Source: Plantactinospora endophytica
GTDB taxonomy: Bacteria; Actinomycetota; Actinomycetes; Mycobacteriales; Micromonosporaceae
NCBI RefSeq assembly: GCF_016862915.1
Contig: NZ_BONW01000002.1
Coordinates: 434,001 to 498,000, forward strand
DNA length: 64,000 nt
Reading direction: 5' to 3'
This document shows, piece by piece, positions 1 through 4,237 of the stretch. Position 1 is the stretch's first letter; each line of letters opens with the position of its first letter. The position numbers and the translations under genes are program-made. A model generated the notes under the pieces. The model did no database searches and was not told the origin of the DNA. It worked only from the letters and a program-made list of their open reading frames with translations.

Positions 1-1
1 C

Positions 2-115
2 GCGATCCGCCGCTGGCAGGACCTGGCCGAGGACCCGCTACGCGGCGTCGACCAACGCCGCGCCGCCCGCACTGTCGTACGAAGCTGCGAGGGAATGCTC
101 GCCGAGATCACCTGA
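2..115 (+). CDS. C-terminal end of an unidentified protein (cut by window edge)
   Basis: An open frame enters from the left edge and ends at a TGA at 113-115, giving 37 residues beginning AIRRWQDLAEDPLRG and ending CEGMLAEIT. The mixed, helical composition looks coding rather than like a shadow frame. The start and any domain lie outside the window, so no function can be given. It is convergent with the DUF397 genes to its right, and the nested hairpin at 148-223 fits as the shared terminator. Confidence 0.5.
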   Translation, partial: AIRRWQDLAEDPLRGVDQRRAARTVVRSCEGMLAEIT

Positions 116-147
116 TCCGCCGCCTGACGCGCCGCGCCGCGCCGCGC

Positions 148-223
148 AAGATCGTGCACATACCCAGAAGGAGTGCCTACGACCGCCCGACGAAGGCACT
201 CTTTCCCTGAAGCAGCACGATCT
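148..223. terminator. Nested hairpin between convergent genes
   Basis: A perfect 10-bp outer stem (148-157 with 214-223) encloses a perfect 8-bp inner stem (171-178 with 194-201). It lies between the end of the partial plus-strand gene and the end of the minus-strand DUF397 genes. No long T run follows, as is common in high-G+C actinobacteria. A bidirectional terminator is the simplest reading. Confidence 0.5.
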
Positions 224-266
224 TCCCCTGCGGGAGCGGGCGCAGGTCGCGTACTCGGCTGCGGTG

Positions 267-458
267 CTACGGCCGGCGAGTGGCCTCGCCGACGAAGGCT
301 TGCCATGCGGCTGGTGTGAAGGCGAGTACGGGGCCGGTCGTGTCTTTGCTGTCGCGTACGGCCACGATGCTGGGGAGGTTGCGGGCGACTTCGACACAGT
401 CTCCGCCGTTAGTGCTGCTACGCGTGCTCTTGCGCCACTGGGCACCGGTCAGGTTCAT
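267..458 (-). CDS. DUF397 protein, copy 3 of a tandem array
   Basis: This is a 63-residue DUF397 protein with the family pattern of an N-terminal TGAQWRKSTRS, a central CVEVA, a VAVRDSKD strand and a C-terminal FTPAAWQAF. DUF397 proteins in actinobacteria are usually encoded beside an XRE/DUF5753 regulator; the Streptomyces Scr1/Scr2 pair is an example known to me. It is the most distal of three head-to-tail copies and differs from its neighbour at only five residues, so the duplication is recent. It is probably co-transcribed with the regulator from the right. A partner or modulator role is inferred from the family only. Confidence 0.85.
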   Translation of the reverse strand: MNLTGAQWRKSTRSSTNGGDCVEVARNLPSIVAVRDSKDTTGPVLAFTPAAWQAFVGEATRRP

Positions 459-476
459 AGCCGTCCCATCCTTGGG

Positions 477-668
477 CTACGGGCGTCGGGTGACCTCGCC
501 GACGAAGGCTTGCCATGCGGCTGGGGTGAAGGCGAGTACGGGGCCGGTCGTGTCTTTGCTGTCGCGTACGGCCACGATGCTGGGGAGGTTGCGAGCGACC
601 TCGACGCAGTTCCCGCCGTTAGTGCTGCTGCGCGTGCTCGTGCGCCAATCGGCTCCGGTCACGTTCAT
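477..668 (-). CDS. DUF397 protein, copy 2 of a tandem array
   Basis: This 63-residue DUF397 protein is nearly identical to the copy at 267-458; the differences are L3V, Q7D, K10T, D20N and A59V. Its start is 210 bp from that of the left copy and 209 bp from that of the right copy, so gene and spacer were duplicated together. The conserved Cys of CVEVA and the RDSKD strand are kept, so it looks functional. It belongs to the same minus-strand transcript as the XRE gene at 874-1665. Confidence 0.85.
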   Translation of the reverse strand: MNVTGADWRTSTRSSTNGGNCVEVARNLPSIVAVRDSKDTTGPVLAFTPAAWQAFVGEVTRRP

Positions 669-685
669 TGCTGTTCCATCCTTGG

Positions 686-877
686 CTACGGGCGATAGTT
701 AACGCCGCCGATGAAGGCTCGCCACGCGGCTGGTGCGAAGGCGAGCGTAGGGCCGGTCACGTTCTTGCTGTCCCGTACGGCGACGATGTCGGGGAGGTTG
801 CGGGCGACCTCGACGCAGTCTCCGCCGTTCGGGCTGCTGCGTGTGCTCTTGCGCCAATCGGCGCCGGTTAGGTTCAT
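686..877 (-). CDS. DUF397 protein, copy 1, overlapping its XRE regulator
   Basis: This is the third and most diverged DUF397 copy (63 residues, about ten differences from the other two, ending GGVNYRP). Its ATG overlaps the stop of the XRE gene in an ATGA (874-877), showing translational coupling. It is therefore probably the ancestral partner of that regulator, with the two left copies arising later. The family usually pairs one DUF397 with one XRE/DUF5753 protein; three in tandem is unusual. Confidence 0.88.
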   Translation of the reverse strand: MNLTGADWRKSTRSSPNGGDCVEVARNLPDIVAVRDSKNVTGPTLAFAPAAWRAFIGGVNYRP

Positions 878-1665
878 AGCTGTTCCATCGCTTCCGTGAT
901 CAACTTAGTTGACTGCGGAACTGGCAGCGCACTGCCCCGAATGGCCTCCCACGACCGACGCAACTGCAACACGTCGGCGGCCTGCTCGACCACATCTCCC
1001 TGCAACTGGTTGTCGATGTAGCCCACGTCTGCGTTGGTCGGCAGGGTCGCCAACACGAACGGCCCGCCGAGTCCAGGGTACGACCCGGCGTCCGCAGGTA
1101 CTACCTGTATCTGCACCAGGGACGTGGTGCCGAGCTTGAGTAGGTGGGCCAACTGGTCCCGCATCACGTCACGCCCGCCGATGACCCGACGGAGAACGCA
1201 CTCGTCGACAACCGCGATGACCAGGGGTGGCTCGTCACGGGTGAGGATGGATTGCCTGTCCAGCCGCTCAGCGACCTTCTGCTGCACCTGTTCGACCGTG
1301 AATAGCGCGCCGCTGAGCAGGGCCTGTGCGTACGCTTCGGTCTGGAACAGGCCGGGTAGCACGGCGTTCTCGAACGATCGTAGGGTGACTGCCTCGCGTT
1401 CGTGGTCGATCCACTCGCGGAGCCAGGTGGGGACGCCGAGTGTGATCACGAGGCGTTCGTGCACGCCGCCTGTCTTCAGGGCGCGGTCGGCGCCGGCGAT
1501 GAAGTCCATGGTCAGGGCGCGGGTCCGTTTCTCGACGGCACTCACGTGGGACGCCGAGAAGTTTGCCAACCGCCCGAACGTCTCCTGTGTCATCTTGGCC
1601 GCCTGCCTGCCCTGACGGATCTCGGCAACTATGAACGCGGCCAGTGGTTCCGGTACTTCGGTCAT
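874..1665 (-). CDS. XRE-family helix-turn-helix regulator with DUF5753 domain
   Basis: The 263-residue protein has an N-terminal Cro/C1-type helix-turn-helix (about residues 10-65, with MTQETFGRLA and SASHVSAVEK) and a long C-terminal DUF5753 domain (about 85-260), marked by LPGLFQTEAYAQAL, the central VIGGRDVMRDQL and the ending LRRSWEAIRGSALP. Such regulators are abundant in Streptomyces and Micromonospora, where WhiJ-like and Scr1-like proteins affect development or antibiotic production and act with a DUF397 partner. Here the partner gene overlaps by 4 bp and is followed by two more copies. Its own target is not evident; autoregulation from the divergent region 1666-1927 is likely but inferred. 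Confidence 0.9.
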   Translation of the reverse strand: MTEVPEPLAAFIVAEIRQGRQAAKMTQETFGRLANFSASHVSAVEKRTRALTMDFIAGADRALKTGGVHERLVITLGVPTWLREWIDHEREAVTLRSFENAVLPGLFQTEAYAQALLSGALFTVEQVQQKVAERLDRQSILTRDEPPLVIAVVDECVLRRVIGGRDVMRDQLAHLLKLGTTSLVQIQVVPADAGSYPGLGGPFVLATLPTNADVGYIDNQLQGDVVEQAADVLQLRRSWEAIRGSALPVPQSTKLITEAMEQL

Positions 1666-1927
1666 CAGAATTCCCCAGGATGTAGATCAATTATTCAGGA
1701 CTCTGCAATGGCACTCACGCCTCCTGTGGATCTGCCAGCACCGCCCATAGGTGCGTGACGTGTTCCCAGCGTAGGGCCTACGTGTCCAAGGTGGAACCAG
1801 GAATTTTCGCTCGGTCACCGCACTTTCGGCGAGGCGCGGAAATGTCGACGGATGCGGCGGCGGCAGGAGCAACAGGAACGAGCAAGCGGAACGCCGTCCC
1901 GAGCAATTTCCACCGATGGGAGGCAGC

Positions 1928-2203
1928 ATGAAAATCGGTCGCGGGACGAAGCCGTATCACCGCCGGAACTGGCGTCGGCTGTGGCGGTACTGCCGGTGTG
2001 GTCTGCGTTGGCGGTGCCCGGACTCGGTCGACCTGGTGCCGATGCCGTACGCGCCGGTGGTGCCGCCCGCCCCGGGCCGGCTCAGGGCCTACAACCGCCG
2101 TTCCGGGTGGGATGCGTCGACCCGCCCGTACCTCGAAAACAGCCGGGTCGGCGCACTGAGGCCGGCACGGGCGGCGCGTATTCGGGACGGGGAGCGGGTG
2201 TGA
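1928..2203 (+). CDS. Small Arg/Cys-rich basic protein
   Basis: This 91-residue ORF starts at an ATG preceded by a good ribosome-binding site (GGGAGG). It begins MKIGRGTKPYHRRNWRRLWR and holds two Cys pairs around residues 22-30, so it is strongly basic, with a possible metal- or nucleic-acid-binding N-terminus. It is divergent from the XRE gene and followed seven bases later by another small gene on the same strand. Similar small pairs occur next to XRE/DUF397 loci in Micromonosporaceae, to my recollection, but no function is known to me. Confidence 0.6.
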   Translation: MKIGRGTKPYHRRNWRRLWRYCRCGLRWRCPDSVDLVPMPYAPVVPPAPGRLRAYNRRSGWDASTRPYLENSRVGALRPARAARIRDGERV

Positions 2204-2209
2204 GGACGG

Positions 2210-2494
2210 GTGATCGGGCCGCAGGAACGTTGGTATCGGGCCGCGCGGCGGATGGGACGCCGGTACCCGACCGGTCGGCACCTGCCGGCGGAGGCGTACC
2301 GATGTCAGACCTGCACCGACCCCTGGCCGTGCGCGCCGGCTCGGCTGGCGCTGCTGATCGGCTTTCGGGGTGACCGGGTTGGCCTGCTGATGTATCTCGC
2401 CGGACACCTCGTCCGCGCTCTGGAGGCGCTGCCCGACACGCATCCGGCGCTGGTCACCGGCCAGATCCTCTACTGGGTACCCCGCCGGCGCTGA
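2210..2494 (+). CDS. Small hypothetical protein with CxxC motif
   Basis: A 94-residue product with a GTG start six bases after the preceding stop, so the two small genes form an operon. It has an N-terminal basic helix, a central RCQTCTDPWPC Cys cluster and a C-terminal helical half (LALLIGFRGDRVGLLMYLAG). The Cys cluster suggests metal binding or a disulfide, but I cannot assign a family. The hairpin at 2519-2559 ends the transcript. Confidence 0.6.
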   Translation: MIGPQERWYRAARRMGRRYPTGRHLPAEAYRCQTCTDPWPCAPARLALLIGFRGDRVGLLMYLAGHLVRALEALPDTHPALVTGQILYWVPRRR

Positions 2495-2566: not shown

Positions 2567-4237
2567 TCAGGTTTCGTCGCTGGCGTCGTACTCGGCGGGG
2601 ACCTTGTAGGGGGCGGCCCGGCGGGTGCCGGCGGTGGCCGTCGGGTCCGGTGGCCGGCGCAGGTGGTGTTCGGTCACCGCCTGGTACGCGGCGACCACCG
2701 CCAACAGTCGCTCCTCGCCGAACGGCGGCGCCCCGAGCGTGGTGCCCCGGGGCACGGTCAGCCCGGTCGTGGTGTCGACGCCGGTGCCGTAGGGGAAGGC
2801 GATCAGCGGCAGCCCGATCCCGTCGAAGACGGTGCCGGTCAGGAAGACGTCGCACTTGTCGAAGACGTCGGTCAGCACCAGGTGCAGGAACTGGTAGCGG
2901 GCCTGAAGCATCTTCATGTAGCTGTCTGAGCTGCGGAACATCCCGTTGAGGAAGCCCGGCAGCCGGTCGGCGAAGAGGCTGACGTCCCGGCGGAGCTGCG
3001 GCAGGAACATGTTCGTCGCCTCGCCGGCCGTGCTGGACAGCCCGGAGAGCAGGTCCCAGTCGGCCGGGTACGCCACCTCGACCACCCGGCAGCCGACCGA
3101 GGTGAGGGTGGTCAGGAGTTGTTGGCGCAGCGCTGTCGTCTCCGCGTTCGAGCCGGTGAGGAAGTCCGGCGGGTAGCCGACGGTGGTCGCCCAGCGGACC
3201 TTCGGCCGGCCCCGGTGCCGGTACACGGTGGCCGCCTTGACCAGGTTCGGCACCGGCGGCATGCCGAGGGTACGCGGGTCGTTGCGGTCCGGGCCGGCGA
3301 TCGCCTGCAACATGATCGCCGCGTCCATCGCGTCCCGGGCCAGCGGACCGGGATGATCCCGGGTGAAGGTGAGCGGGATGATGCCGTACAGCGAGGCCCG
3401 GCCGAAGGTGGGCTTCAGGCCGGTCAGGTTCTGTGCGGTCGACGGGCTGGTGATCGAGCCGCCGGTCTGGGTGCCGGTGCCGGAGGTGGCGAGTCGGCCG
3501 GCGACCGCCGTGGCGGTGCCGCCGCTGGAGCCGCTCGGGCTGTACCGGATGTCGTCCGGGGTCCAGGCGTTGACGGTGGTCGCGGTACCGTCGGCCAGCC
3601 GGGCCCGGCCGGAGGCGAGCGGACCCATCGCCGCCTTGCCCATCATGATCGCCCCGGCCGCCTTCAGTCGGGCGTGCACGGTCGAGTCGTACTCGGGGAC
3701 GAAGCCGCCGTAGACCGGGGACATCGCGGTGGTCGGGATGCCCTTGGTGTAGAAGTTGTCCTTCTCGGCGGTGATGATCCCGGCCAGCGGCGTCGACTTC
3801 GAGGTGATCCGCACCCGGCGGGCCGCCGCGAGCAGCTCGGCGTTGCTCGGCCGCCACAGGTACGCCTGGTAGACGCCGTCGAAGCGGTCCAACCGGTCCA
3901 GATAGGACTCCATCAGTTCGACCGGGTCGAGCAGTCGGCGCCGGAACGCGGCGGCAGCCTCGCTGACGGTCAGCTCGGTGGGGTCGGCCAGTGCCGCCCG
4001 GCGGATCGTCGGCGCGTACGCGGTCTCCCAGACGTTGCCGGCCGGCCCGCTGCCGCTGCCGGTTGCCAGCGCGGGCGCGGTGAGGCTCGTGGCGCCGAAG
4101 AGGCCACCGGCACCGGCCGCCGCCCACACCCCGGCCATCCGGGAGAGGAACCAGCGCCGGTCGACGGCCAGATCCTGGGGTACCGCCCCGGTCTCGTCGC
4201 CGCCCGTCGAAGTCGATGTGGTGGGCGTCGTCGTCAC
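2567..4237 (-). CDS. Tat-exported amidase-signature hydrolase
   Basis: This 556-residue amidase-signature enzyme hydrolyses an unidentified amide. A twin-arginine signal, DRRWFLSRMAG (about residues 27-37) followed by a hydrophobic Ala/Gly stretch, predicts folded export by Tat. The Ser-Ser-Lys triad is visible: Lys in AEKDNF (about 159), the cis-Ser in PSGSSGGTA (about 237) and the nucleophile in TQTGGSITS (about 261). Its GTG start overlaps the stop of the upstream small gene (GTGA at 4234-4237), so translation is coupled and the two products may work together. Substrate cannot be read from sequence. Confidence 0.88.
   Translation of the reverse strand: MTTTPTTSTSTGGDETGAVPQDLAVDRRWFLSRMAGVWAAAGAGGLFGATSLTAPALATGSGSGPAGNVWETAYAPTIRRAALADPTELTVSEAAAAFRRRLLDPVELMESYLDRLDRFDGVYQAYLWRPSNAELLAAARRVRITSKSTPLAGIITAEKDNFYTKGIPTTAMSPVYGGFVPEYDSTVHARLKAAGAIMMGKAAMGPLASGRARLADGTATTVNAWTPDDIRYSPSGSSGGTATAVAGRLATSGTGTQTGGSITSPSTAQNLTGLKPTFGRASLYGIIPLTFTRDHPGPLARDAMDAAIMLQAIAGPDRNDPRTLGMPPVPNLVKAATVYRHRGRPKVRWATTVGYPPDFLTGSNAETTALRQQLLTTLTSVGCRVVEVAYPADWDLLSGLSSTAGEATNMFLPQLRRDVSLFADRLPGFLNGMFRSSDSYMKMLQARYQFLHLVLTDVFDKCDVFLTGTVFDGIGLPLIAFPYGTGVDTTTGLTVPRGTTLGAPPFGEERLLAVVAAYQAVTEHHLRRPPDPTATAGTRRAAPYKVPAEYDASDET

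Follow-up and report, generated by a model that had tools for sequence, protein, structure and literature searches.

Why is a single XRE regulator followed by three genes for its small DUF397 partner, and do these encode parts of different complexes or simply alter the stoichiometry of one? The question is raised by a locus in the 9.68-Mb draft genome (90 contigs) of Plantactinospora endophytica, lying in a 64,000-nt stretch of contig C2 (C2:434001-498000) that was analysed as a whole and is called the window here. The initial annotation had described three DUF397 genes with a 209/210-nt period behind one XRE/DUF5753 gene, and its coordinates, period and overlap all proved correct (Table 1). 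The direct repeat is 210 nt long and present in three copies, spaced by 210 and 209 nt and 91% and 80% identical to the reference. All three reading frames are intact, the proteins score 82 to 85 bits against the Pfam DUF397 model, whose cut-off is 24 bits, and the motifs CVEVA and VAVRDSK (names from PMC10294661) occur in each of them. Copy 1, whose start overlaps the end of xre, is the most diverged, as had also been noticed at the outset: it differs from copies 2 and 3 by 14 and 13 residues, and the two distal copies differ from each other by 5.

Table 1. Features of the XRE-DUF397 locus and its divergent neighbours (window coordinates).
Feature	Coordinates	Strand	Remarks
xre, HTH (XRE) + DUF5753 regulator, WhiJ/Scr1-like, 263 aa	874..1665	-	Pfam PF19054 174.5 bits, PF13560 (HTH_31) 31.4 bits
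DUF397 copy 1, 63 aa	686..877	-	Pfam PF04149 82.6 bits; start overlaps xre stop (ATGA)
DUF397 copy 2, 63 aa	477..668	-	Pfam PF04149 82.3 bits
DUF397 copy 3, 63 aa	267..458	-	Pfam PF04149 84.8 bits
Spacer before copy 2, CCAAGGATGGAACAGCA versus xre tail GAAGCGATGGAACAGCT	669..685	-	12/17 identical, shuffle P 0.0008; presumed ribosome-binding site
Spacer before copy 3, relic of xre 3' end	459..476	-	last 17 nt: 11/17 identical, shuffle P 0.0018
Bipartite element upstream of xre, TTCCACCTTGGAC-N17-GGAA	1763..1796	-	putative xre promoter and/or operator, divergent intergenic region
Element upstream of xre, also cited by sequence TTCCACCYTGGAC			xre-orfA intergenic region
orfA, 91 aa, Arg/Trp-rich, WRYCRCGxRWRCPDS core	1928..2203	+	divergent to xre; candidate target
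orfB, 94 aa, GTG start, CxxC...WPC motif	2210..2494	+	divergent to xre; candidate target

With an N-terminal HTH-XRE domain, a C-terminal DUF5753 domain and a DUF397 gene directly downstream on the same strand, the locus fits the XRE-DUF397 (WhiJ/BldB-type) pair, and with at least two tandem DUF397 genes behind one XRE gene it also fits the XRE-(n)DUF397 tandem unit. Gene spacing suggests that xre and the three DUF397 genes most likely form one transcript, the extent of which is assumed; a scan of window positions 1-2000 for intrinsic-terminator-like and sigma-70 consensus sequences gave no match.

Comparison of synteny and copy number in related strains, proposed in the initial annotation as a check, located the orthologous locus in four relatives, G001, G003 (P. 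mayteni NBRC 109088, of the same genus), G004 and G005, whose XRE genes are 86, 86, 79 and 71% identical to xre of the window, respectively. Two other genomes of the genus, G002 and G006, contain only more distant XRE relatives (identity of 55% or less). The orthologous locus carries four DUF397 copies in G001, three in the window, two in G003 and one each in G004 and G005; the array expands and contracts between species. The same locus with 4, 3, 2 and 1 copies amounts to a natural dosage series for the effect of DUF397 on XRE regulators, a question left open in the available parts of the literature cited here.

Such arrays are not confined to this locus. The P. endophytica genome has 61 DUF397 and 52 DUF5753 matches, and 12 of 60 DUF397 genes (a 57-nt fragment, C32:30861, being dropped) stand in five arrays of 2, 3, 3, 2 and 2 copies, an array being defined as same-strand DUF397 neighbours with starts no more than 300 nt apart. 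The one-contig relatives have two arrays with 6 of 42 DUF397 genes, one of them four-copy (G001), and five arrays with 11 of 54, one of them three-copy and one including a partial DUF397 domain (G005). At least two DUF397 genes at array spacing were found at 4 of the 30 XRE loci examined in the genus (44 XRE matches in all). An exact-pattern survey of the family detected arrays in at least 5 of 300 genomes, our own included, which is a weak lower bound, as the survey missed the known arrays of G001, G003 and G005; a scan of named genome contigs, possibly leaving out records close to our genome, gave two loci, both in P. mayteni.

Several of these loci have peculiarities of their own. A second DUF397 triplet in the same genome (L029, G000:C22:108501-112500) lies behind another XRE gene, and its middle copy, in which a TGA in frame separates the start codon from the domain, is thereby probably broken. 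A DUF397 pair (L031, G000:C8:143501-147500), 94.8% identical, adjoins an XRE/DUF5753 gene that has DUF5753 matches in two different frames and is possibly a broken regulator. At G000:C9:66437-67775 (-), the usual order is reversed, the DUF397 match standing upstream of the adjoining DUF5753 match. G001 has one more small ORF (starting MTRYLISFDDG), located between the fourth DUF397 copy and the convergent gene (L022).

The spacers between the copies indicate what was duplicated. Both spacers in the window resemble the 3' end of xre (Table 1), and relics of the xre tail also precede the three downstream copies in G001 (shuffle P 0.00005-0.0017, one base being omitted in the fourth copy for register) and the downstream copy in G003 (shuffle P 0.0001), these values, like those in Table 1, coming from mononucleotide shuffles at sites picked after inspection. 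One of the G001 spacers still encodes, in one frame, MEQL-stop, the C-terminus of XRE. The relic also recurs in a paralogous G005 pair (14/17 nt) and in the unrelated C8 array of our own genome (30/30 nt); arrays C22, C39 and C1 and the wider pair C19 were compared by eye, C39 and C1 being ambiguous. Given that relics of the xre tail stand before the downstream copies, the duplicated unit is, to judge from the spacers, the xre tail with its presumed ribosome-binding region plus one DUF397 gene, and the overlapping position, that of copy 1, is the founder position. Because such a unit would begin in the xre 3' end, each copy would have carried a presumed ribosome-binding region along and would remain translatable.

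The age of the copies was judged from dS. Within the arrays it is 0.25 for window copies 2 and 3, 0.14-0.22 in G001 and 0.23 in G003; for xre, in the six pairs of four species, it is 0.37-0.51. Copy 1 of the window, at dS 0.41-0.50 from copies 2 and 3, is older, of about the age of the species splits. The longest identical tract shared by copies 2 and 3 measures 68 nt (P 0.008 under random placement of differences), the G001 copies share such tracts of 62-101 nt (P <= 0.011), and those of G003 one of 53 nt (P 0.027); copies 1 and 2 of the window have no excess identical tract (P 0.81). Taken together, the low within-array dS and the long identical tracts point to recent duplication or gene conversion in the arrays, window copy 1 having been left out. 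The tree of 17 short DUF397 genes has little resolution, with 2 of its 14 inner branches starred, and is compatible either with ancient duplication followed by conversion or with repeated duplication: window copy 1 groups weakly with G003 copy 1 (support 50/67), and the AU test does not reject a clade made up of the three window copies (p-AU 0.348).

Within arrays, pooled dN/dS amounts to 0.32; between species, with G005 omitted, the value is 0.26, and xre itself has 0.16-0.23. The window copies show less amino-acid change than a simple neutral simulation gives (P 0.0003-0.0015), constraint is less clear in G001 (P 0.02-0.33) and G003 (P 0.04), and no positive selection was seen in ten pairs of copies, which share sequences and hence are not independent. 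All nine array copies at the three array-bearing orthologous loci (window, G001 and G003) are intact. By these substitution patterns, purifying selection acts on the window copies, which have also been homogenised in part.

The locus is a WhiJ/BldB-type module with a tandemly duplicated DUF397 gene, and we consider it moderately likely that its array supplies excess interchangeable subunits for a single XRE regulator. Under this model, recombination and purifying selection would keep the copies partly alike, the DUF397 subunits encoded by what is most likely one xre-DUF397(n) transcript would form oligomers that attach to the single XRE regulator or modulate it, and the regulator would control its own promoter and the divergent orfA-orfB genes through the intergenic element described below, so that the array would set the level of an oligomeric co-regulator. 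The initial annotation had left two possibilities side by side, namely that one regulator with three partner variants could form different complexes or alter stoichiometry. The second is favoured by the copy numbers of 4, 3, 2, 1 and 1, the homogenised tracts and the within-array dN/dS of 0.32, and the first is less favoured, yet pure redundancy is opposed by the intactness of all nine array copies and by the grouping of window copy 1 with G003 copy 1 (50/67). Further points count against the model: two of the five orthologous loci are single-copy, so the array is dispensable there; pure dosage has no need of an older and distinct copy 1; constraint on the four-copy G001 array is weak; not every array has a divergent orfB; and, in Streptomyces, BldB7 failed to interact with BldB and contact between Scr1 and Scr2 was not demonstrable.

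There is some room, although not much, for three specialised DUF397 proteins, each of which would join the XRE protein in a complex of its own, with different outputs or in response to different signals. Besides its divergence (dS 0.41-0.50), copy 1 has in common with G003 copy 1 the codons 39-40 (Asn-Val), which occur in none of the nine other copies at the five orthologous loci; however, the grouping of the two is supported by only 50/67, the data are compatible with monophyly of the window copies, dN/dS stays far below 1, and the four G001 copies are all alike, copy 1 included (90.5-92.6% nucleotide identity). The distribution of variable residues is likewise divided. In G001 all 14 lie outside residues 23-49, confined to the N-terminal segment/first loop and the C-terminal helix/tail with strands 3 and 4 invariant, as if one surface varied, whereas the 16 variable residues of the window array are scattered along the chain, and residues 29-48 include 5 of them. 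Clustering at both ends, clear in G001, is not seen in the window array.

The arrays could also be a neutral by-product, in which frequent small tandem duplications persist for a while without benefit. This is improbable for the window, although the occurrence of arrays at 5, 2 and 5 loci in three genomes, the unstable copy number and the in-frame TGA in the C22 triplet are what it would lead one to expect. The window copies are intact and differ in protein sequence less than neutrality predicts (P 0.0003-0.0015), a result to be read with the facts that 45-68% of simulated neutral copies were stop-free for the three window pairs and that part of the pattern could also be produced by gene conversion if a single copy were under selection and served as donor. 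A toxin-antitoxin role has been proposed for the family from genome context (PMC2701414; PMC7159879). A type II system here, with DUF397 as a toxin in three doses and XRE as the antitoxin, is very unlikely and was rejected as the leading idea, published homologues having been found not toxic under the conditions used. Anti-phage defence was also considered and rejected: at E 0.01, PADLOC matched none of the three DUF397 proteins and gave only a weak HTH match for the XRE protein (E 5e-4).

Expansion of the repeat during assembly, named in the initial annotation as what would refute the array, can practically be dismissed even for a 90-contig draft, because an expanded repeat would yield identical copies, whereas those of the window are set apart by 16, 34 and 36 differences in 189 nt, and because the four copies at the same place in G001, a single contig, are unlikely to be an assembly error. 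The array is real, and may include a further, collapsed copy.

The conserved bidirectional cassette around the array is a more interesting lead than the triplication itself. Divergent to xre stand orfA and orfB, neither of which has a Pfam or NCBIfam match at E 0.1. At the orthologous locus, orfB is 94% identical in G001 and 87% identical in both G003 and G004; orfA has 116 matches over seven Plantactinospora genomes, some genes being counted in two pieces. Members of the orfB family (cut-off E <= 1e-6) lie divergent to a DUF397 gene within 3.5 kb in 18 of 20, 14 of 18 and 21 of 21 cases in three genomes (53 of 59), against an expectation of about 0.2 per genome. Conversely, a divergent orfB accompanies 3 of 5, 2 of 2 and 3 of 5 of the arrays of three genomes, and since not all arrays have one, the link between arrays and orfA-orfB is not a strict one. 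An order-wide sample of 25 genomes contained orfB relatives (E <= 1e-10) in 2, namely our own and one of the same family. At G000:C2:354917-356204, an orfB relative is divergent to a DUF5753 gene with no DUF397 match nearby, a cassette seemingly without partner.

The wider neighbourhood includes an amidase family gene (PF01425; window 2567-4153, -) convergent to orfB and, on the other side, two large genes convergent to the array (L021 2410-6115, +), which end at window position 115. Both have GxxxxGKS-like P-loops and are possibly dynamin-like GTPases. For the second, a C-terminal part gave no Pfam match, and the end of this gene is kept in G001 and G003. An abaA-type gene adjoins whiJ-bldB in 5 of 10 S. 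venezuelae clusters (PMC10294661); here, in a scan for such a gene (HATPase), orfA, orfB and a C-terminal part of the convergent gene gave no Pfam match, and the gene beyond orfB is the amidase.

The intergenic region between xre and orfA contains a bipartite element, TTCCACCTTGGAC-N17-GGAA, conserved at all five orthologous loci. Sixty loci provided 57 xre-orfA regions, of which 12 duplicates were dropped. The palindrome TCCAnnnTGGA occurs in 28 of the 45 distinct regions, which include orthologues and are not independent, and is absent from 17; mononucleotide shuffling gave an expectation of 0.1. GGAA follows at one fixed offset (18) in 24 of the 28 palindrome-bearing regions, the consensus of which is TTCCACCCTGGAC-N17-CGGAAGAT. 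Our own genome has 23 exact TCCACCYTGGAC sites; 10 of them precede DUF5753 genes, against 0.04 expected, and the other 13 lie elsewhere; the reversed pattern, used as a control, gave 3 sites. G001 has 19 TCCACCYTGGAC sites and G005 has 22. The spacing of the element resembles that of a promoter and its palindrome an operator, and it may be both. By analogy with Streptomyces, the most likely targets of the XRE protein are its own promoter and orfA-orfB. The divergent pair together with the common element offers a concrete candidate target and site for regulators whose targets are mostly unknown.

Structure prediction adds a possible route for signal input. In the AlphaFold2 model of DUF397 copy 1 (mean pLDDT 85.9), four strands are combined with a C-terminal helix, in agreement with the published description of DUF397 (PMC7159879). 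Structure searches gave no convincing fold relative (no Foldseek match at E <= 0.001; best Z 4.3), which does not imply that the fold is novel, and sequence searches found no solved structure for DUF397 (E up to 1) or for the XRE protein (E up to 0.1). In the XRE model (mean pLDDT 88.2), an N-terminal HTH is followed by DUF5753, the best structural match of which is SauUSI (Z 11.1 over 140 residues, 3.0 A), with further matches to the NgoAVII R protein (10.9), PLD3 (10.3), Zucchini (10.1), FAM83B (9.8), NucT (9.8), Nuc (9.5) and TrmBL2 (9.2), where the tool's note puts the chance best Z at 7-8. Foldseek alone gave no match to DUF5753 at E <= 0.001, its best phospholipase-D-like rows being 4urj (3.9e-3) and 4rct (5.1e-3). 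From these models, DUF5753 is predicted to have a phospholipase-D-like fold. The catalytic motif of phospholipase-D-like enzymes is HxK. None is present in the 263-aa XRE protein, the motif occurs in 2 of 25 aligned relatives but at positions that do not correspond, and no His is invariant or nearly invariant among the aligned XRE relatives. As HxK is missing from the XRE protein, catalysis is unlikely, and we infer a sensor or scaffold role for DUF5753; TrmBL2 likewise joins an HTH to a phospholipase-D-like domain. The predicted fold provides a testable idea on signal sensing by XRE regulators.

A bolder extension of the interchangeable-subunit model, which we regard as speculative and unlikely as a whole, is that orfB-orfA / xre-DUF397(n) are bidirectional cassettes dispersed in Plantactinospora genomes, many of them with one promoter/operator element, whose DUF397 arrays form a shared tunable pool and thereby a genome-wide rheostat. 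If this were true, additional copies at one cassette would alter the distribution of hetero-oligomers among many XRE regulators reading the same element, and the rheostat would be developmental or metabolic, with an inactive phospholipase-D-like DUF5753 sensor as its signal input.

The locus has counterparts in several known systems. In Streptomyces, WhiJ has been proposed to repress development until relieved by its DUF397 partner (review PMC4255298). The iosA-whiJ9-bldB9 cluster of S. venezuelae resembles the window in that its HTH-XRE gene stands beside a DUF397 gene and faces a small gene across a regulatory intergenic stretch. WhiJ9 binds this stretch, between iosA and whiJ9; its site, however, consists of three CGxxCTCAAC direct repeats, unlike the element described here (PMC10294661). 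The neighbours in S. venezuelae are abaA or iosA, not known to be orfA or orfB, and no tandem bldB array is mentioned in the accessible parts of that account (PMC10294661). BldB interacted in two-hybrid assays with 9 of 10 paralogues, two more weakly, and BldB7 did not (PMC10294661). In the accessible parts of the literature on DUF397, DUF5753 and whiJ/bldB/abaA, no description of the gene pair, the element or the phospholipase-D fold was found. Scr1/Scr2 and 14 XRE/DUF397 pairs of S. coelicolor share the architecture of the window, with HTH plus DUF5753 regulators and DUF397 proteins of 63-96 aa, but the published tables list a single DUF397 gene for each XRE gene (PMC6262351; PMC10364602). 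Scr1 needs Scr2, although contact between the two was not demonstrable, Scr2 being insoluble (PMC6262351).

Tandem copies have been described in two other settings. "Multiple tandem copies" of DUF397 occur near HTH genes, as in the window, and near VMAP-ternary conflict systems, and multimeric complexes are proposed; unlike in our reading, they are treated there as toxin parts or co-effectors (PMC7159879). In S. clavuligerus, 24 XRE genes adjoin 33 downstream DUF397 genes, and five tandem units have, like the window, one XRE gene followed by tandem DUF397 genes, with a DUF397:XRE ratio consistently above 1 for both RNA and footprints (PMC8269248). That several DUF397 partners per regulator alter the composition or stoichiometry of the complex was proposed for S. 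clavuligerus (PMC8269248) and in general (PMC7159879). The S. clavuligerus account, in its accessible parts, does not deal with the origin of the spacers, copy-number change at one locus or divergent partners (PMC8269248). The triplication in the window is an ordinary case of this published arrangement, and what is new relative to the published accounts is the origin of its spacers from the xre 3' end.
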